DNA of 64,000 nucleotides from Sporomusaceae bacterium. GTDB taxonomy: Bacteria; Bacillota; Negativicutes; UBA1444. A model generated the notes under the pieces. That model saw nothing but the letters and a program-made list of their open reading frames with translations. It had not been told where the DNA came from and ran no database searches. The translations under genes were made by a program, and so were the position numbers. Location: NCBI GenBank assembly GCA_018434355.1, contig JAHDPL010000029.1, positions 1 to 64,000 of the forward strand, in the 5' to 3' direction. This document shows positions 7,537-55,925 of the stretch, piece after piece (the stretch's first letter is position 1; every line of letters begins with the position of its first letter).

Positions 7537-7551
7537 GTATACAACTTAATA

Positions 7552-7626
7552 ATGGGCAAACTTATCGAAAGGTAAGGGCGCAAAGCCATTGGGTCTAAGG
7601 GGAACACCTATGACAGCCAGGTTGCA
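7552..7626 (+). ncRNA. c-di-GMP-I (GEMM) riboswitch
   Basis: All conserved GEMM blocks are in order: GGGCAAAC, a CTTATC-GAAA-GGTAAG stem with a GNRA tetraloop, the GCGCAAAGCC ligand-binding core, the GGGTCTAAGG and CCTATGACAGCC tetraloop-receptor side, and the closing CAGGTTGC. The aptamer ends about 24 bases before the first in-frame ATG of a diguanylate cyclase. No clear terminator follows. The closing strand GTTGC could alternatively pair with GCAAC at 7707-7711 next to a GGGAGG sequence, which would mean translational control, but this is speculative. Confidence 0.93.
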
Positions 7627-7648
7627 GCAGGCAGTGATGTCATAGTTC

Positions 7649-8851
7649 ATGAACCGGAGATTTTTATCTTTGGTTTTTTTGTTTGCGATTTGGCTTGAGA
7701 AGGGAGGCAACGCGAGAACGAAGATGATTGAAGTTCAAGTTAACGTATTTATGGTCATATTGTTGCTTAGTATTGCAGTTCATGCATATTTAAATTTCAA
7801 TCGCAGAGAAAGAGCCCAACAATCTTTCTTTGGCTTGTTGTTATTGGCCATTTTGGTACTGGTGCTGGAAATTTTGAGCGTATTATTAAACTCCCCAGCC
7901 CATCAAAATCTTCTTATGCTGCATAAAATCGTGAATACCGCCGGCTTTGCCATTGCTCCAATGGTTTCCGCCGCTGCGGCCCTGTTCGTTTACCATAGGA
8001 TCAAGCGGCATGCGATGATCAGGCCCGGCAAAACCTATTGGCTGCTTGCACCGTTGCTTGTCAATGCCGTGTTTGCATTGGGCAGTTATCACTATAACTG
8101 GATTTTTCACATCACCAGCGAGAATTTGTACGTACGGGGGCCGCTGTTCTTTGTGTCGCCCATGTCCGTATTCTTCTTTTACGGATTGGCCCTGTGGATT
8201 TTGCATGTTAATCGACGCAAAATCGTCACGGCAGAATTATTTTCCTTGACGTTACTGGCCGTGATGCCTTTGCTGCTGTCGTTATTTCAATTATATTATT
8301 TTGTCTACCTGACGATCTGGAACAGTTTGGCGATTGCAATAACAATCAATTATATGTTCCTTTTGCACAGCCAGACTAGGATCGATCCATTGACGGGCCT
8401 AGGCAACCGGTTGGCGCATGACGAATATCTGGCAAGCATGAGCCGGAAAAGCCAGCTTGTTTTGTCAGTAGTGAACATTGATCTGGACAACTTCAAAAAC
8501 ATCAACAATGCTTATGGACATCACGAAGGAGACCGGGTTTTGCGGGCATTTGCCCAGGAATTGAAGGCCGTGTTCGAAGGTTTTGGCGAGCCAATCAGGG
8601 TCGGCGGCGATGAGTTTATCGTCTGGGTTCACACGAATGACCGGACGCTTATCGAAGGCTATCTCAAGACGCTTACCGCAAAACTTAACGCCGGCAAATC
8701 CAAGCGACGATTGCCGTACCCTGTCAGTTTCAGTTATGGGATAACCGTGTTCAACGATGGTTATAAAGACTTGCAGGAGTTTATCCAGCACAGCGATCGG
8801 TTGATGTATGAGGCCAAACACAGGAAACGCCTCCGTTCGCTGTGGGCATAA
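7649..8851 (+). CDS. Membrane-bound diguanylate cyclase (GGDEF)
   Basis: Makes c-di-GMP from two GTP. Residues 30-230 hold about seven hydrophobic segments (a 7TM sensor-like module of a type also found in histidine kinases), then a complete GGDEF domain: DPLTGLGNRLAHDEYL, NIDLDNFKNINNAYGHHEGD (metal Asp) and RVGGDEFIVW at about residue 318. The inhibitory I-site RxxD that normally lies five residues before GGDEF is absent (the stretch reads EGFGEPIRV). A c-di-GMP-I riboswitch precedes it, so feedback is likely transcriptional or translational. The start is unclear: ATG 7649 has no RBS, and ATG 7724 has GGGAGG but at a long 16-base spacing. Confidence 0.88.
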   Translation: MNRRFLSLVFLFAIWLEKGGNARTKMIEVQVNVFMVILLLSIAVHAYLNFNRRERAQQSFFGLLLLAILVLVLEILSVLLNSPAHQNLLMLHKIVNTAGFAIAPMVSAAAALFVYHRIKRHAMIRPGKTYWLLAPLLVNAVFALGSYHYNWIFHITSENLYVRGPLFFVSPMSVFFFYGLALWILHVNRRKIVTAELFSLTLLAVMPLLLSLFQLYYFVYLTIWNSLAIAITINYMFLLHSQTRIDPLTGLGNRLAHDEYLASMSRKSQLVLSVVNIDLDNFKNINNAYGHHEGDRVLRAFAQELKAVFEGFGEPIRVGGDEFIVWVHTNDRTLIEGYLKTLTAKLNAGKSKRRLPYPVSFSYGITVFNDGYKDLQEFIQHSDRLMYEAKHRKRLRSLWA

Positions 8852-48139: not shown

Positions 48140-50182
48140 CTAGATGCGAAACCGTTCGACAGCGAGTTTAAGATTGTTCGCGATGGCTGATGTCTCATGG
48201 GCGCCGGCGGACACTTCCTGAGCCGTGGCCGATTGTTCTTCGGTAGCGGCTGACATTTCTTCGGCGCCGGCGGCAGATTGTTGGGCGACGGCCGAGATTT
48301 CCTCGACGCTAACCAGGGTATTGCGGGCATTGGACTGAATCGTTGCCAACTGATTTGACAGTTCCGTGACCAGCTTTTCGACTAAGGCGATTTCTTGAAC
48401 GATACCACCAATATAGCGACCACCGGTCTCGATTGCGCCAACTTGGGTGTCCACCCGTTCCAGGTTTGTTTCCATGGTGCGCACGGTGACGGAGGTTTCC
48501 TCCTGAATCGTATTGACTAGGCCGCGGATCGATTCGGCCGACTTATTCGAGTCCTCGGCCAGTTTGCGGACTTCTTCGGCAACTACGGCGAAGCCACGCC
48601 CTGCTTCACCGGCCCTGGCAGCCTCGATGGCCGCATTGAGAGCGAGCAGGTTCGTTTGGCCGGAGATATGCATGATAATCCCAACAATGTTGCCGATTTC
48701 GCTGGAACGTTTGCCCAGGTTCTGGATCGACTCGGTGGCGAACCGAACGGTTTCACGGACTTGCCCGAGCTGGTCGATCGCTTTTTGCAAAGCCTCCATA
48801 GCTTCCTTGACGTTTGTGCTGGTGTCGCCGACTTTCTTCTTCATTGTGGTTGCATCGCTGGTTCCGGCATCGACGGAAGCCTGGACCTCCTGCATACGCG
48901 ATAGCATATCAGTGGCAAGACCGGCCAGTTTGGACGATCCTACCGCAATCTCGCCGACGGTTTCGGCGACCTGGCCGGCGGTTTCGCCGCTTTGCCGGGC
49001 TGCTTCCGAGACCGTGGCGCTGGTGTCGCTGAGCTGGTTGGCATCGTTGCGCAATGCGCGTACGACATTGGCCAGTGATGCCCGCATATTCTGAAATGCC
49101 GCTGCCATTTGAGCAACTTCATCCTGTCCCTGAGCCAGCTTTTTGTCCACAGGCCGCTCCGTCAGATCGCCGGCGGCGATATCGCGGGCTCGAACCGATA
49201 GCTGGCCTAAAGGCGCCAGACGGCGGTTGATGAAGTAGCCTAAAAACGACAACGCCGCGAAAAGGACCAGCAGGCCGAGTCCGGCGCTATGCAGGGCGGC
49301 CTGGCGACCTTGCGCCAGCATGATCTCACTGTTCAACGTCACTGCCAGAGACCAACCGAAGCTTTCTGACGGCGTTCCCTTGCCGATCGGCTGGAAGCCT
49401 AGCATTTTATGTAGGCCGTTGTAATCGTATTCGCCTACGCCGGTTTCTCCCTTGGCCATCCGGGCGATCAGTCCTCCGAGCGCATCGGTTCTTTTGCCAA
49501 GGGCGTCTGAGCCTCGCTGCTTGAGGTCAGGGTGCCAGAGGATCACTTTTTTGTTGTCGACGATCATCGGGTAACTGTCAGTCAGTCCCCGGGCCACGAA
49601 GCCGTCAATCAGCGGCTTCATGAAAGCGTCAAAAGCGGAGAAGGGGATCCTGGCCATCACATAGCCGATGATGGACTGTCCGGAAAGATCCCTAAGCGGA
49701 ATGGCAAAAACGATCACTGGTTGTTTCAGATCGTTTGACATCCGATACTCCATATGTTTGGCCTGTTTGGTTTGAACTTGCTTGAACCATTCGGCGTTTC
49801 GGTAGTTCTGGCCAAGCACGCCGCTGCCGACGCCCGTGACCAGCGTTCCGTTGGGATCCACCAGCAACAGGTCCGAGTAGATTCCCTGATAAGCATTGAA
49901 TACTTCCTGCAACGCCAGTTTCTTGGTTTCGACCGTGGCGGCAGGATCTTTCAGCACCCTGCGGGTTGCCAGCACATCGACATCGCCGCTGCGTTGGTTG
50001 AGATAGTTGTTCAGACTCATGACCACCAGATTGGTGGCGGTGGTTGCTTCACGCTCGGCGCCGGCCAAGGTCGCCTGATTGGAGCGCCACAGAGAGAAGC
50101 CGAGCGTAGCGACAAGCAAAAAGATGATGATCAGGCTGGTGAATAAGATGATCCGGACCCGCAGGCTTTGCAAATTGAACAT
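48140..50182 (-). CDS. Methyl-accepting chemotaxis protein (dCache-HAMP-MCP)
   Basis: 680 residues: TM (about 10-32), a dCache ligand domain (35-300), TM (about 303-325), HAMP ([20 protein letters not shown]), and the MCP signalling coil with the hairpin tip [45 protein letters not shown]. It signals to CheA/CheW or to a kinase of similar type; no che genes are in the window. RBS AAGGAG precedes the ATG. It begins four bases after the stop of the REC-PP2C phosphatase gene, so it is the last gene of the partner-switching operon. Confidence 0.93.
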
Positions 50183-50185
50183 GTT

Positions 50186-51358
50186 TTACAGCTCCTTAGA
50201 CAAGATATCGATCGCTATGACGCAGGCGTCATCCATATCGCGGACAGGCAGTAGCGGACGCAAGGGCTTTTCCAGCGCTGCCAGAAAGGCGGCCGGTGAG
50301 TTGGCGGTAGTCGTTGCCAACAACTCGGACAGTGTCTCGATTCCAGCCCCAATCGACGCAAAATGGTTTTCCAGAATGCCGTCGGAAAACGCAATCAGGC
50401 GACAACCGACAGGCAAACCGACTGTCTGCGTTTTCAGGTTGTTGGCGGGGAACAGGCCGAGCGGCGGCGCGGTGCTTTCTAGTTTCAGAATCGTAGCGTC
50501 AGGCAAACGCAATAAGGCCGGCAAATGACCGGCATTGGCCCAGTGCAGTTTTTCGGCGGCCAAGTCGAAATCAAAGCAGATCGCTGAGAGAAAGCTCGGC
50601 AACACTCCGTTTTCCTCTTCTGCCGTCTGTCGCGGCAGACTGGCGATATCCCACATCTGTCGTCCAAGTGAATTGAGGAGGTCGCCAGGAGTGGTATTTT
50701 GTTGCATCAGCCGGCTGGCGGCAGACTGCAGGAAAACCGCAATGAACGCCGCAGATACGCCATGTCCCATCACGTCCATCAAAATGGCGGCGTAACGTTG
50801 GGGACCGGAGGGACAGACGAAGACCATATCGCCGGACAGGTTGCTGGCGGGGTGATACAACAGTTCCATCTCGAAATCAGGCCGTTGCAGTCGGCGGGTC
50901 AACAACCGGTCCTGGATTTCCTGGGCGATTCGGATGTCCTGTTGCAAACGTTGTTCGAACCTGCGCCTGCTTGCCCGCTCGCGGTCAAGTTGGATGGCGT
51001 TGCGCAAGCGGACCTGCAGGTTGTATTTCTGGATTGGCTTCAGGACATAATCGGTAGCGCCGGCTTCAAAGGCGCAATTCATCTGGATTTCATCATTGCT
51101 GGCGGTGACGACGAGAATCGGCGTGTCGGCATAGCCCGGCATCGACCGGATACGCAGGCAACAGGCGATGCCTTCCATGCCTTCCATTTGCAGGTCAAGC
51201 AGAATGGCTCGGACATTTCCAGGTTCGGCTTGCCGCAGTCGTTCCAGCACCGATTCGCCGCTGGCAAATTCTTCGGGAATTCCGAATCCAAGTTTGGTGA
51301 TGAAATTGCGGATGATTTTGCGATCGCTGGCCGAATCGTCGACGATGAAAATGCTCAA
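50186..51358 (-). CDS. REC-PP2C (RsbU/SpoIIE-type) serine phosphatase
   Basis: About 390 residues: REC (IFIVDDSASDRK, LLDLQMEGMEG phospho-site, KPI), coiled coil (RRRFEQRLQQDIRIAQEIQDRLL), and a SpoIIE/RsbU phosphatase domain (LSGDMVFV, LMDVMGHGVSAAF, NAGHLPALL, FSDGILE, DDACVIAI). When its REC is phosphorylated it should dephosphorylate the STAS antagonist encoded just upstream. The longer frame to 51610 overlaps the STAS gene; TTG 51358 (or 51367, overlapping the STAS stop) is the likely start, near GGAG. This start is not certain. Confidence 0.87.
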   Translation of the reverse strand: MSIFIVDDSASDRKIIRNFITKLGFGIPEEFASGESVLERLRQAEPGNVRAILLDLQMEGMEGIACCLRIRSMPGYADTPILVVTASNDEIQMNCAFEAGATDYVLKPIQKYNLQVRLRNAIQLDRERASRRRFEQRLQQDIRIAQEIQDRLLTRRLQRPDFEMELLYHPASNLSGDMVFVCPSGPQRYAAILMDVMGHGVSAAFIAVFLQSAASRLMQQNTTPGDLLNSLGRQMWDIASLPRQTAEEENGVLPSFLSAICFDFDLAAEKLHWANAGHLPALLRLPDATILKLESTAPPLGLFPANNLKTQTVGLPVGCRLIAFSDGILENHFASIGAGIETLSELLATTTANSPAAFLAALEKPLRPLLPVRDMDDACVIAIDILSKEL

Positions 51359-51363
51359 GACGA

Positions 51364-51750
51364 TCAATACTCCTGCGGCGTCAGAGGAAGCGGTCGTTCG
51401 TGCGTCAACGCCTGCAAGGCGCTGGCTTCGTCCGGTGCGACTGTCATGATTTGGTCGAACTTGGCGATGCGAAACAGGTCTAATATGAACGGATCGGATA
51501 CGACAACCGCCAATTTGATTTTGCGGCTGGCTGCTTGCCTGACAAAGTGGATCAGTACGCCAAACCCGGTGCTGTCGATCCGTTTGAGTTTGTCCATCAT
51601 GAACAGGCAACGGCTGCCCTCGGTCAACTTCTCGAAATATGGACGCACCTGTTCGCGCGCCTGGGTAGAGACTTCATACACCAACGATCCCGAGCATTCG
51701 AGCCGCAGCGATGTTTCATCCATTCTCCCCGTCACATTGAACTCAGCCAT
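51364..51750 (-). CDS. STAS-domain anti-sigma-factor antagonist
   Basis: 128 residues of one STAS domain, RsbV/SpoIIAA-like. The phosphorylation loop reads KRIDSTGFGVLIHF (Ser in DSTG). In partner switching the unphosphorylated form traps the anti-sigma kinase. It overlaps the RsbW-like gene by eight bases upstream and meets the phosphatase gene at its stop, so all three are coupled. The C-terminus is somewhat longer than classic RsbV. Confidence 0.9.
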   Translation of the reverse strand: MAEFNVTGRMDETSLRLECSGSLVYEVSTQAREQVRPYFEKLTEGSRCLFMMDKLKRIDSTGFGVLIHFVRQAASRKIKLAVVVSDPFILDLFRIAKFDQIMTVAPDEASALQALTHERPLPLTPQEY

Positions 51751-52171
51751 GTTTTTTGATCCCCGCTTTCAAAATCATTATATGTCTTCCTGTCCGGTCG
51801 GCGCCTGAATCGATTTCTTGGCACAAATTCTGCATGAACAGAATCCCGCGACCGCGTTCTTCCCATAATAAATCCTGCATCGTCTGATTTAGGCAGATTT
51901 CCCGCCAATTGGGCGGCAGTCCCGGTCCTCGGTCAGGAATTTCGGCAGTCAACTGTTCCTTGTCGAGGCGCAGTGTGGCGGATAGCGGCTCGTCAGCCTG
52001 GCCGCAGCGGCAATTTGCTTCGAAAGCATTGACTAGCGCCTCGTGCAGGGCGAACAAAAAAGCAGGATTCACAACGCCCCAGGCTAACAAGGCGTCTTCA
52101 CAAGCCTGCTCCAACCGTTCTAATCCGTCAATTCCAGAAACAGGTGCGCTCAATTGCAGTTCGTAAAGCAA
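51743..52171 (-). CDS. RsbW-like anti-sigma serine kinase (HATPase_c_2)
   Basis: 142 residues with a GHKL ATPase fold: HEALVNAFEANCRC (N box), DRGPGLPP (G1) and RGRGILFMQNL (G2). RsbW/SpoIIAB-type kinases phosphorylate a STAS antagonist and bind a sigma factor or another target. No sigma-factor gene is adjacent, so the target may be elsewhere or may not be a sigma factor. The TTG start has GGAG at eight bases. First gene of the four-gene minus-strand operon. Confidence 0.88.
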   Translation of the reverse strand: MLYELQLSAPVSGIDGLERLEQACEDALLAWGVVNPAFLFALHEALVNAFEANCRCGQADEPLSATLRLDKEQLTAEIPDRGPGLPPNWREICLNQTMQDLLWEERGRGILFMQNLCQEIDSGADRTGRHIMILKAGIKKHG

Positions 52172-52357
52172 ATTTGTATTCTCCGTTCAAATCATGACAC
52201 GAGCGGAATACAAGAAACTAAAGAAAAATTAATACAAATAATTAATTCGCAGCATAGACGAATTTTCCTGCACGACTTTTGCAAAGTTTAAAAATAATGC
52301 AGGAGTTTGCAGCAATGCGCTGAAATAAAACAAAATGTGCAGGAAGCTGAAAATCCA

Positions 52358-55339
52358 GTGAATACTTTATTAAGAAATAAAGGCGGAAAATCTGCCGCCA
52401 GCTTACGCAAGACGTTTAGTCTGGCGTTTGTTTTGGTGTCCGTATTGCCGTTGCTGTTTTCAATCATTGTGACATTCGAACAGACTGAAAAGACGACAAT
52501 TCAGGCGGTGTTCGAGGCTAACCGGAATCTGGCCGCCAATATCGCCGAAGACATTGACGCAATGTTTATCGAAAAAGTCCGACTGCTCAAAATCGTGGCG
52601 AATAATGCCGAAATCAAATCGGCAGACCCGCTAAGACAAACGGCGGTGCTGCGTGACCTATACTTTCATAGTGGCGATATCGGCATTGCCCTGCTTGCGG
52701 ACAGTCAGGGAAAGCTGATTGCCAGATCCGATGATCAACCGATTGCCGGGATCAGTTACTTCGACCGGGATTACTTCCAGCAAATGCTGCGTACACGTAC
52801 TACTGCGATTTCCGAGGTGATTCAATCCCGTAGCACCGGGCAGCAGGTCATAGGAATCGCTGAACCAGTCATTGGCAGTGGTGGCGAGCTATTAGGCGCT
52901 GTCATTATCAACGTCGAGCTGGAAAAGCTGGGGCAACGCATTGCCAAAACAAAAATCGGACAAACCGGTTATGCGATTCTGGTCAATGAGGCCGGCCACA
53001 TTCTGTTGCATCCCGATTCCGGCATCGTGGCGACTTCGGCCAATCTGTTCCGCATGGTTCCGGAGTTGGCGGCCTCTTTCAAACAGACCGGTGCGATGGA
53101 ATATGAATATGAAGGGCAGAAAAAATTGGCCGGCTACAGTTTTTCCCCCACGCCGGGCTGGGGCCTGATTGTCCAGCAACCTCTGGATGAGGCGCTGGCC
53201 GGAGTCAGAGCCACCCGCAGAGCCAACCTGTTTATCGTATTGCTTGCCGGTGCTGGTGCGATTGCGTTCGGATTGGTCCTGGCCGACAAATTGTCGCGGC
53301 CGATTACAGACATCAGCGTAGCCGCTGCGGGCTTGGCTGCCGGCGACCTGTCGGTGCGTCTGGATGTAGCGCGCCGGGATGAATTGGGCCGGCTGGCTGA
53401 TGCATTCAATGACATGGCGTTACAGCTGCAAAAACGCGAGGAAGCATTGAGAGATAGCGAGCACCGTTATCGGTCATTGGTTGACAACTTGAAAATCGGT
53501 GTGTATCGAAGTCAGGCAGAGCCGCCGGGAAGGTTTATTCAGGCGAACCCGGCCATGGCCTCGATTTTCGGTTATGATTCGGTCGAAGAATTTTTGCAGC
53601 AGGATGTTGAAACCCTGTTTCAAAAGACTGGCGATCGGGCTGCATTTTTAGCCAAACTGGCAAAGCAAGGGACGCTGACAGACGAGGAACTGGCCTTGCG
53701 CAAGAAGGATGGAACGCCGATCTGGTGCACTTACAATATCACGGCGCATTATGACGAGCAGGGACGTATCGAATGGATCGAAGGCGTCATGGAAAACATC
53801 ACGGAGCAAAAGATGCGCCAACGTTGGCAAGCGGCGCTGTATCAGTTGTCCGCTGAAATATCCCACGCCGATTCGTTGGAAGAATTGTTCAAAACCTTGC
53901 ATAAAGTAATCCGCGAGTTCATGCCGGCCAATCGTTTTTTTGTAGCCTTGCAGAATGAGGCCGGCAATTTGTCCATCGTATATGCTGCTTCAGCTGTCGG
54001 GGAATTTTCAATTTTTGAAGCGATTCCGGCCGGGTTGATGGAGGAGGTGTTCCGAAGTGGTGAACCGCGTTTTGGCGACGACACCGACTGGCGAGCGCAT
54101 GGCAGCGAACATCTGGCTGTGCCGCTCAGGACGGGAGATGGTCGGGTTCTAGGCGTAATGGGCTTGGCCGGCGGAGATGACGAAGTGTTGTTTGCCCAGC
54201 ACCATCTGGCGATGCTAGATTTTTGGTCCGGGCAGATTGCCGCCACGATTGAACGTAAAACCGCCGAAAATCATTTGCGATTTGTCAGCCTGCATGATGC
54301 ACTGACCAAGTTGTATAACCGCAATTATTTTGAAGAAGAAATGAAGCGTCTCGACAAACGGCGTTCCGGTGCGGTAGCCATCGTTGTGTTCGACCTGGAT
54401 GGGCTGAAAATGGTGAATGATACGTTGGGACATGAACAGGGCGACCGCATGCTGGTCGTTGCAGCCCGGATTTTGCAACGCGCATTTCGCGATGGCGATG
54501 TGGTGGCGCGAATCGGGGGCGATGAATTCGCCGCGCTGCTGGAAGATGCATCAGAAGAGTTGATGGGTCAGGTCCGTGAGCGGATTCGGCAGTCAACGGA
54601 GCTGGCTAACCGACAGCAACCCGATGAAGTGGCGTTGCCGATCAGCCTGTCGATGGGATATGCTTTGAGCGTTGGTTCGGGTACTCCCATGCGGGAACTG
54701 TTCCGGCAGGCGGACAACTCCATGTACCGGGAAAAACTGAATCGTGGACAAAGTGCCCGCAATAGCATCGTTCAGACGGTGATGAAGATGCTTAAGGCGC
54801 GTGATTTTATGACCGAGAATCATTCGGACCGACTGCAGTTCTTGGTGACTCAATTGGCTGAACGACGAGGTCTTTCGCCGGAGCGTATCGCCGACCTGTG
54901 TCTGTTGGCGCAGTTTCATGATATTGGCAAGGTGGGGATTCCCGACCGGATTCTGATGAAACCGGGACCGCTTAGTGCCGATGAAATGGCTGAAATGCAA
55001 AAACACTGCGAAATTGGTCATCGGATATCGTTGGCGTTACCGGAATTGGAAGCAATCAGCGAATGGATTTTGAAACATCACGAATGGTGGAACGGAGAAG
55101 GTTATCCGCTGGGGATCGCCGGCGCGAAGATTCCACTGGAGTGCCGGATTTTGGCGATTGCTGATGCCTACGACGCAATGACCAATGACCGGCCTTATCG
55201 TCCGGCGATGAGTCATCAAGCTGCGCTCGCCGAACTGCTCCATTGCGCAGGGACCCAATTCGATCCCGAACTTGTGAGGCTGTTTAACAGCATTGAAATG
55301 ACGGAGATAGGACTTGACAGCGGTCAGGCAAGTCGATAA
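52358..55339 (+). CDS. dCache-HAMP-PAS-GAF-GGDEF-HD-GYP bifunctional c-di-GMP enzyme
   Basis: About 993 residues: TM about 18-38, dCache sensor, TM about 290-312, HAMP (DKLSRPITDISVAAAGLAAGDLSVRL), PAS (SLVDNLKIGVYRS), GAF-like region, an intact GGDEF (HDALTKLYNRNYF, FDLDGLKMVNDTLGHEQGD, RIGGDEF, with I-site RDGD) and an intact HD-GYP (HDIGKVGIPDRILMKPG, HHEWWNGEGYP, IADAYDAMTNDRPYR). It should make and break c-di-GMP depending on an external ligand. The start is uncertain: GTG 52358 has AGGAAG, TTG 52307 overlaps AGGAG. Divergent from the partner-switching operon and followed by a c-di-GMP riboswitch. Confidence 0.9.
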   Translation: MNTLLRNKGGKSAASLRKTFSLAFVLVSVLPLLFSIIVTFEQTEKTTIQAVFEANRNLAANIAEDIDAMFIEKVRLLKIVANNAEIKSADPLRQTAVLRDLYFHSGDIGIALLADSQGKLIARSDDQPIAGISYFDRDYFQQMLRTRTTAISEVIQSRSTGQQVIGIAEPVIGSGGELLGAVIINVELEKLGQRIAKTKIGQTGYAILVNEAGHILLHPDSGIVATSANLFRMVPELAASFKQTGAMEYEYEGQKKLAGYSFSPTPGWGLIVQQPLDEALAGVRATRRANLFIVLLAGAGAIAFGLVLADKLSRPITDISVAAAGLAAGDLSVRLDVARRDELGRLADAFNDMALQLQKREEALRDSEHRYRSLVDNLKIGVYRSQAEPPGRFIQANPAMASIFGYDSVEEFLQQDVETLFQKTGDRAAFLAKLAKQGTLTDEELALRKKDGTPIWCTYNITAHYDEQGRIEWIEGVMENITEQKMRQRWQAALYQLSAEISHADSLEELFKTLHKVIREFMPANRFFVALQNEAGNLSIVYAASAVGEFSIFEAIPAGLMEEVFRSGEPRFGDDTDWRAHGSEHLAVPLRTGDGRVLGVMGLAGGDDEVLFAQHHLAMLDFWSGQIAATIERKTAENHLRFVSLHDALTKLYNRNYFEEEMKRLDKRRSGAVAIVVFDLDGLKMVNDTLGHEQGDRMLVVAARILQRAFRDGDVVARIGGDEFAALLEDASEELMGQVRERIRQSTELANRQQPDEVALPISLSMGYALSVGSGTPMRELFRQADNSMYREKLNRGQSARNSIVQTVMKMLKARDFMTENHSDRLQFLVTQLAERRGLSPERIADLCLLAQFHDIGKVGIPDRILMKPGPLSADEMAEMQKHCEIGHRISLALPELEAISEWILKHHEWWNGEGYPLGIAGAKIPLECRILAIADAYDAMTNDRPYRPAMSHQAALAELLHCAGTQFDPELVRLFNSIEMTEIGLDSGQASR

Positions 55340-55342
55340 TAT
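55314..55342 (+). promoter_or_regulatory. Promoter of the c-di-GMP riboswitch-STAS transcript
   Basis: TTGACA (55314-55319), 17 bases, TAATAT (55337-55342). It overlaps the 3' end of the GGDEF-HD-GYP gene and gives the riboswitch its own start about 25 bases before the aptamer. Confidence 0.78.
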
Positions 55343-55374
55343 TATGGTAGATTAAATAATGATTATCAAAAAGA

Positions 55375-55451
55375 ATATTGGCAAACTTGCTGAAAAGTAA
55401 GGACGCAAAGCCGTGGGTCTAAGGGTGCGAGCCTATGATTGCCAGGTTGCT
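55375..55451 (+). ncRNA. c-di-GMP-I (GEMM) riboswitch
   Basis: The conserved blocks are in order: TTGGCAAAC, a CTTGCT-GAAA-AGTAAG stem with a GNRA loop, GGACGCAAAGCC, GTGGGTCTAAGG, GCCTATGATTGCC and CAGGTTGC. GGTTGC at 55445-55450 can instead pair with GCAACC at 55489-55494, which overlaps the 5' arm of a strong terminator. Ligand binding should hold GGTTGC in the aptamer and let the terminator form, which predicts that c-di-GMP turns the downstream gene off. Confidence 0.93.
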
Positions 55452-55490
55452 TTTCTCCACAAGGAGAATGACGAGATCGTAGGATCAGGC

Positions 55491-55521
55491 AACCGGTGCA
55501 ATCGCGCCGGTTTATCTTTTT
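55491..55521 (+). terminator. Riboswitch-controlled intrinsic terminator
   Basis: AACCGGTGC-AATC-GCGCCGGTT (nine pairs, one G-U) followed by TATCTTTTT. Its 5' arm shares four bases with the GCAACC alternative partner of the riboswitch closing strand, so terminator and antiterminator exclude each other. A separate TTCTCC/GGAGAA hairpin lies between aptamer and terminator. Confidence 0.82.
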
Positions 55522-55622
55522 GCAATGAGGTTGCGATAATGTAGATAAGGGGTAATGTAGCAAGGATTGAGACAAGCTGACGTGCAGCGGAAAAATGAAC
55601 GAAGATGAGTAGGGGAGCAATT

Positions 55623-55925
55623 ATGATTCAGAGTGCGGAAATCATCGATAATCAGGTACAGGTAGTTCTTGCCGGCAGTATTTATATTGAGGAAGCAAAG
55701 CAGGTTCAGGCAAAGATTCAAGACTTTCTCGAACATGGTTACAAGAAATTTTCCTTTGATATGTCAGCCGTCGACTATATCGATAGCTCGGGCCTGGGGA
55801 TGCTGGTTGCGCTTCACAAGCAATCGCTGAAAAAGGGCGGTTGTATGAAAATCAGCGGAATCAATGGCATGGTAAGGGAGATATTTGAACTGACCCGCCT
55901 GACCAAGGTGTTTGGGATCGTGTGA
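55623..55925 (+). CDS. STAS-domain anti-sigma-factor antagonist behind a c-di-GMP riboswitch
   Basis: 100 residues from ATG 55623 (AGGGGAG at five bases; an in-frame ATG at 55605 lies before that RBS). A compact RsbV-like STAS domain with the phosphorylation loop SAVDYIDSSGLGMLVALHKQ intact and a usual C-terminus (EIFELTRLTKVFGIV). It stands alone, without its own kinase or phosphatase, and is preceded by a c-di-GMP-I riboswitch with a terminator. The RsbW-like kinase and REC-PP2C phosphatase at 50-52 kb are the nearest possible partners. Confidence 0.92.
   Translation: MIQSAEIIDNQVQVVLAGSIYIEEAKQVQAKIQDFLEHGYKKFSFDMSAVDYIDSSGLGMLVALHKQSLKKGGCMKISGINGMVREIFELTRLTKVFGIV

Follow-up and report, generated by a model that had tools for sequence, protein, structure and literature searches.

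A c-di-GMP-I riboswitch that probably switches off transcription of a STAS-only, anti-sigma-type antagonist gene in a Sporomusaceae bacterium

Among riboswitches for cyclic di-GMP (c-di-GMP), the class I aptamer Cd1 (Cdi1_3) of the C. difficile flgB operon has been proven by experiment to be an OFF switch: in the ligand-free state the terminator's 5' arm is sequestered by a strand of the aptamer, which serves as antiterminator, and binding of the ligand brings about termination (PMC9262584, PMC5386303, PMC3649979). Links between c-di-GMP and partner switching by STAS proteins are known at the protein level, from HsbA-HsbD. In the HsbR-HsbA-HsbD system of Pseudomonas aeruginosa, a STAS antagonist that is switched by phosphorylation is coupled to c-di-GMP as well as to motility and biofilm formation (PMC5085249, PMC6482189). 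A structured leader predicted to turn off a STAS-domain gene has been described in Streptomyces as the dauA motif (PMC11109978). Neither riboswitches nor c-di-GMP come up in a review devoted to STAS-only proteins. Here we analyse a c-di-GMP-I (GEMM-I) riboswitch that precedes a gene for a STAS-only protein in 64,000 nucleotides of a Sporomusaceae genome (GCA_018434355.1, contig JAHDPL010000029.1, positions 1 to 64,000; hereafter the window). We hold with good confidence that this riboswitch turns off, at the level of transcription, the gene for a STAS-only antagonist of the anti-sigma type. As read from the sequence, the locus has a promoter, an aptamer with intact ligand-pocket bases, a predicted antiterminator/terminator pair and a STAS gene with a putative phospho-acceptor serine:

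55314 to 55342, forward strand: sigma-70-type promoter, TTGACA-17-TAATAT (pattern scan, 10 of 12 consensus matches)
55370 to 55454, forward strand: c-di-GMP-I riboswitch aptamer (Rfam RF01051)
55437 to 55450, forward strand: 3' closing strand of the aptamer, GATTGCCAGGTTGC, also the 5' side of the antiterminator (RF01051 alignment, folding)
55489 to 55505, forward strand: 3' side of the antiterminator, GCAACC plus GGTGCAATC, covering the terminator 5' arm and loop (folding)
55491 to 55521, forward strand: intrinsic terminator with the T-rich tail TATCTTTTT (terminator scan)
55623 to 55925, forward strand: gene for the STAS-only protein, monocistronic (open reading frame, Pfam STAS)

The aptamer is an ordinary member of its class; it matches model positions 1-87 of 87 and, at 73.5 bits (E 1.5e-12), scores above the gathering threshold of 35. 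An A at the position equivalent to G20 of Vc2 is the mark of cGAMP-type variants. The present aptamer has a G there, within TTGGCAAAC, and a C ends its GGTTGC. These pocket bases would fit c-di-GMP rather than cGAMP, the G being a selectivity factor (PMC9262584) and not a proof of the ligand. The terminator has a 9-bp stem-loop (55491-55512) followed by its T-rich tail. As the original prediction had proposed, GGTTGC at 55445-55450 is complementary to GCAACC at 55489-55494, which overlaps the terminator 5' arm, and the STAS gene has a promoter of its own in the tail of the upstream GGDEF-HD-GYP gene, whose TAA stop codon (55337-55339) overlaps the -10 element. The STAS gene begins with an ATG at 55623, five bases behind an AGGGGAG, and ends at 55925; the gene downstream, for a response regulator, is on the opposite strand, and the STAS gene therefore stands alone. 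The Rfam score, the terminator scan and the monocistronic reading frame thus uphold the earlier description of a riboswitch with a terminator before a lone STAS gene.

Folding of the leader points to the direction of the switch. When 55370-55527 is folded without constraint, the antiterminator is present and the terminator absent (-53.5 kcal/mol). If the aptamer is held in place instead, the fold contains the terminator (-49.2 kcal/mol). In folding of the growing transcript, the ligand-free antiterminator has a probability of about 1.0 at lengths of 125-137 nt, and the terminator reaches 0.94-0.96 once the closing helix of the aptamer is enforced. By sequence and folding, then, the terminator is compatible with the aptamer while the antiterminator consumes an aptamer strand, and since this strand logic equals that of Cd1 we read the leader as OFF. 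The duplex between closing strand and terminator arm (-19.5 kcal/mol) is the joint strongest, with that of one other locus (L135), among the 121 aptamer loci of the class that we examined. None of 200 mononucleotide shuffles was as good as the observed complementarity (z -4.1), and 22 of 5000 random 24-mers from the window matched it. c-di-GMP is thus most likely the OFF signal for the STAS gene, and the claim that it should stop transcription of this gene is backed by the folding models and by the mutually exclusive antiterminator.

Several observations weigh against this reading. Dinucleotide shuffles reach the observed complementarity in 45 of 5000 cases (0.9%); it is above chance, good but not overwhelming. 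For the full-length, ligand-free leader the equilibrium probability of the terminator is still about 0.5, and a mixed equilibrium of this kind requires a switch that works while the RNA is being transcribed, which is how Cd1 is known to behave (PMC9262584). The energy model, and with it the energy computed for the free aptamer, takes no account of tertiary contacts, and the model does not include the ligand. The antiterminator has no covariation support, because an orthologous leader was not found in 380 genomes of the class. Some real c-di-GMP-I aptamers are unresponsive in vivo, and Bc1 binds its ligand without a change in expression (PMC11218506). Finally, we infer partner switching by the STAS protein, acting on an anti-sigma kinase, from family membership only.

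The protein, of 100 amino acids, consists almost entirely of a STAS domain (Pfam STAS, 68.6 bits, residues 11-103 of 106) and passes the cut-off of TIGR00377, the anti-sigma factor antagonist family (64.1 bits, cut-off 53.45). It fails that of TIGR02886 (50.1 bits, cut-off 114.75) and is therefore not a SpoIIAA ortholog. Its best relatives of solved structure are RsbV, TM1442 and SpoIIAA, with E values of 1e-8 to 1e-7 for the anti-sigma-B and anti-sigma-F antagonists. Given that its IDSSGLG motif aligns with the MDSTGLG of RsbV (PDB 6m36), the riboswitch-controlled protein is probably phosphorylatable on the serine. No kinase or sigma factor gene adjoins the STAS gene on its own strand.

From these elements we propose the following mechanism. 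At low c-di-GMP, as folding suggests, GATTGCCAGGTTGC would leave the aptamer and pair with GCAACC...GCAATC over the 5' arm and loop of the terminator, and the STAS gene would be transcribed; at high c-di-GMP the strand would be locked in the aptamer, the terminator would form and the STAS protein would not be made. From what is known of the family, unphosphorylated STAS protein would titrate at least one HATPase kinase, or else other targets, and falling c-di-GMP would yield more antagonist.

The partner need not be local. The original prediction assigned the matching kinase and phosphatase to a divergent operon, which, in the order of its genes, consists of:

51743 to 52171, reverse strand: RsbW-like HATPase_c_2 serine kinase (Pfam HATPase_c_2, 45.9 bits)
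51364 to 51750, reverse strand: second STAS protein, STAS2, with the motif IDSTGFG (Pfam STAS, 39.8 bits)
50186 to 51433, reverse strand, start approximate: REC-PP2C (SpoIIE-type) phosphatase (Pfam SpoIIE 120.8 bits, Response_reg 77.6 bits)
48140 to 50182, reverse strand: methyl-accepting chemotaxis protein (MCP), the end of the operon (open reading frame, sequence features)

If the switch fed this system, c-di-GMP would lower the level of a STAS protein that is the substrate of the divergent kinase and the REC-PP2C phosphatase. The two loci are divergent and only 3.4 kb apart, and by their Pfam matches the kinase and phosphatase genes are real, so that this part of the original prediction stands. 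STAS proteins of the riboswitch-controlled type are moreover often found in kinase-STAS-PAS-PP2C-MCP operons: its closest relatives (45-55% identity) occur in such runs, in MCP-STAS-PP2C runs, or alone, and the MCP at 48140-50182, used as a tblastn query, finds MCP genes beside STAS genes in relatives. The assignment of the kinase to the riboswitch-controlled protein, however, found no support. The operon has its own STAS protein, STAS2 with its DSTG motif, which the original prediction had left out; its gene overlaps the kinase gene by 8 bases, which makes it the obvious and likely partner of the local kinase. We also built a kinase model from seven kinases that lie beside close relatives of the riboswitch-controlled STAS protein. 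In the source genome the divergent kinase scores only 24.8 bits with this model and ranks below at least 20 matches from other kinase-domain loci, led by two PP2C-HATPase fusions (on contigs C49 and C50) with 80 and 73 bits. Nor did tblastn with the divergent kinase recover any of the kinases adjoining relatives of the riboswitch-controlled protein. We therefore reject the divergent kinase and REC-PP2C as its default partners, given the operon's own STAS2 and a kinase from a different subfamily, and consider the local wiring unlikely. The kinase-model score argues against the divergent kinase as a first choice but does not name a partner, since the C49 fusion adjoins a STAS gene and an MCP gene of its own (L018). 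One or more PP2C-HATPase fusions elsewhere in the genome are, on sequence, the more likely partners. In the source genome, SpoIIE-type phosphatase domains number 23 and matches to HATPase_c_2 above the cut-off about 20; many of these are fused in one protein, and some of the weaker HATPase_c_2 matches may be ordinary histidine kinases. The phosphatase set is unusually large, and the genome encodes about ten STAS-only proteins, several of them beside chemoreceptor genes.

A second alternative, which we find about equally improbable, is that the sensor works but mainly attenuates read-through from the gene upstream, with the STAS gene as a bystander, or that the leader is insensitive in vivo. 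The upstream gene is:

52307 to 55339, forward strand: dCache-HAMP-PAS-GAF-GGDEF-HD-GYP protein (Pfam, open reading frame)

Its longest reading frame starts from a TTG at 52307, with a GTG at 52358 as an alternative, and by eye its GGDEF and HD...GYP motifs are intact, so that the protein may make or degrade c-di-GMP. The terminator scan found no terminator between this gene and the aptamer, and read-through transcripts would therefore also meet the switch. Leaders resembling Bc1, mentioned above, and the lack of conservation of the aptamer-STAS pair would agree with a silent or incidental leader. Against it stand the near-consensus promoter directly before the aptamer, the well-formed switch, the Shine-Dalgarno sequence and intact STAS gene downstream, and the recurrence of the aptamer-STAS pairing elsewhere.

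This recurrence is of an independent kind. The original prediction took absence of the pair from relatives as evidence against itself and proposed a search for GEMM upstream of STAS genes in related genomes; the outcome is mixed. No ortholog was found: neither the 380 genomes of the class nor a phylum-wide protein search contained a relative of the riboswitch-controlled STAS protein above 55% identity, a search of genome contigs with the protein gave distant relatives only, and the pair therefore looks lineage-specific. No aptamer was found within about 1.5 kb at the 29 nearest STAS loci of the class, at seven loci of the phylum or at eight paralogs in the genome itself. On the other side, a second lineage, in four genomes of one genus of another family (L251-L254), has an aptamer, a terminator and a STAS-only gene consecutively. 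In a fifth genome (L255) the order is aptamer, MCP, STAS, and at another locus (L256) the STAS gene is without a nearby aptamer. Only 2 of 149 aptamer loci examined lead into a STAS gene, the present one (L004) and a member of the second lineage (L239); against about 0.4 expected, on the rough estimate that STAS-only genes make up some 10 of 3700 per genome, two independent cases do not amount to significant enrichment. For a function of the second pairing, its conservation in four genomes speaks more strongly. A draw of 398 genomes from the phylum, which had no positive control, yielded no member of this lineage. In one of its leaders (L252, genome G146) part of the aptamer's 5' strand occurs twice (GGCAAACCTCCTGCAAACCTCCTG), and the match to the aptamer model falls to 65.8 bits.

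In the leaders of the second lineage, one and the same strand closes the aptamer and makes up the terminator's 5' arm. Enforcing the aptamer lowers the computed terminator probability from 0.86-0.97 to 0.07-0.25, and the folding models thus describe an ON design. The STAS proteins there carry [MI]DAAG and consequently lack the phospho-acceptor serine. That a STAS gene came under a c-di-GMP-I aptamer independently in another family counts in favour of an OFF switch with the STAS gene as its target at the present locus. As a tentative extension, possible but rather less than an even bet, we suggest that wiring c-di-GMP by RNA into partner switching is a recurrent design in the class (by gene content probably Negativicutes), in which one lineage shuts off a phosphorylatable STAS protein at high c-di-GMP and another turns on a permanently dephospho-like (Ala) one, with chemoreceptor genes as common companions.

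That the present leader is itself an ON switch, in which the ligand favours read-through, is very unlikely: the ON type is the most frequent of the clearly assignable leader types in the class (48 of 121 loci by strand overlap and 36 by folding, counting only clear loci because our automatic classifier left 51 of 121 undecided and picked a long spurious hairpin at L005), and the second lineage is ON-type, but the terminator at 55491-55512 does not use the aptamer strand, which pairs instead with the terminator 5' arm, and enforcing the aptamer raises the terminator probability from about 0.55 to 0.94.

The source genome has five c-di-GMP-I aptamers. Apart from that of the STAS gene, they precede an MCP gene (L001), a PAS-HD-GYP gene on contig C42 (L002), a FliL-like gene (L003) and a GGDEF gene (L005), a coherent motility and c-di-GMP set. 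The last of these lies within the window:

7545 to 7629, forward strand: second c-di-GMP-I aptamer of the window (RF01051, 72.2 bits)
7649 to 8851 (open reading frame): membrane GGDEF gene behind this aptamer (Pfam GGDEF, 112.3 bits)

Downstream of this aptamer lie AACCGGAGAT...ATCTTTGGTT and a T tract; on visual inspection they follow an antiterminator logic, CC(A)GGUU:AACCGG, that is the same as at the STAS gene, and the arrangement suggests negative feedback on a diguanylate cyclase. With the aptamer before the phosphodiesterase-type PAS-HD-GYP gene, a GGDEF and an HD-GYP gene would both be under ligand control. A sister genome (73% complete) has four c-di-GMP-I aptamers, none of which was found before a STAS gene. 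Elsewhere in the class, L135 has two such aptamers on the same strand at a spacing of about 170 bases (G039:C65:50844 and 51015), a probable tandem riboswitch whose first aptamer follows an AACCGG-type OFF logic, and one 3.3-Mb genome (G008) has 25, far above its relatives (1-17 listed).

If our reading is correct, the level of a STAS antagonist is set by a second messenger by way of an RNA, and this direct route would be easy to test. The two independent pairings, of opposite predicted sign within one class, would offer a natural comparison of the same input and the same protein family under different wiring. Beyond a chance co-mention in a whole-genome paper, we found no link between a c-di-GMP riboswitch and partner switching in a partial literature survey that did not include the original GEMM gene lists. 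The original statement that no case had been described agrees with this, and given the scope of the survey the novelty of the target amounts to not found rather than proven. A STAS antagonist as the target of a c-di-GMP riboswitch is, as far as the literature could be searched, a wiring not described before; we regard it as of moderate interest, and as a variant within a known kind of system.

Set beside the known systems, the STAS protein belongs to the fold family of the RsbV/SpoIIAA-type antagonists and shares their phospho-acceptor serine, in IDSSGLG, but is not encoded with a kinase partner or next to a sigma factor gene. The leader resembles Cd1 in its aptamer class and in its predicted strand exchange; the target of Cd1 is a flagellar operon rather than a STAS antagonist, and its switching has been proven by experiment where ours is predicted. 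The dauA motif, likewise placed before a STAS-domain gene, is a candidate with an unknown ligand and an unrelated fold, predicted in Streptomyces to act by Shine-Dalgarno occlusion (PMC11109978). In the HsbR-HsbA-HsbD system the coupling is between proteins, HsbA binding the diguanylate cyclase HsbD (PMC5085249, PMC6482189). Information there flows from the STAS protein to c-di-GMP, whereas at the present locus it would flow from c-di-GMP through RNA to the STAS protein.

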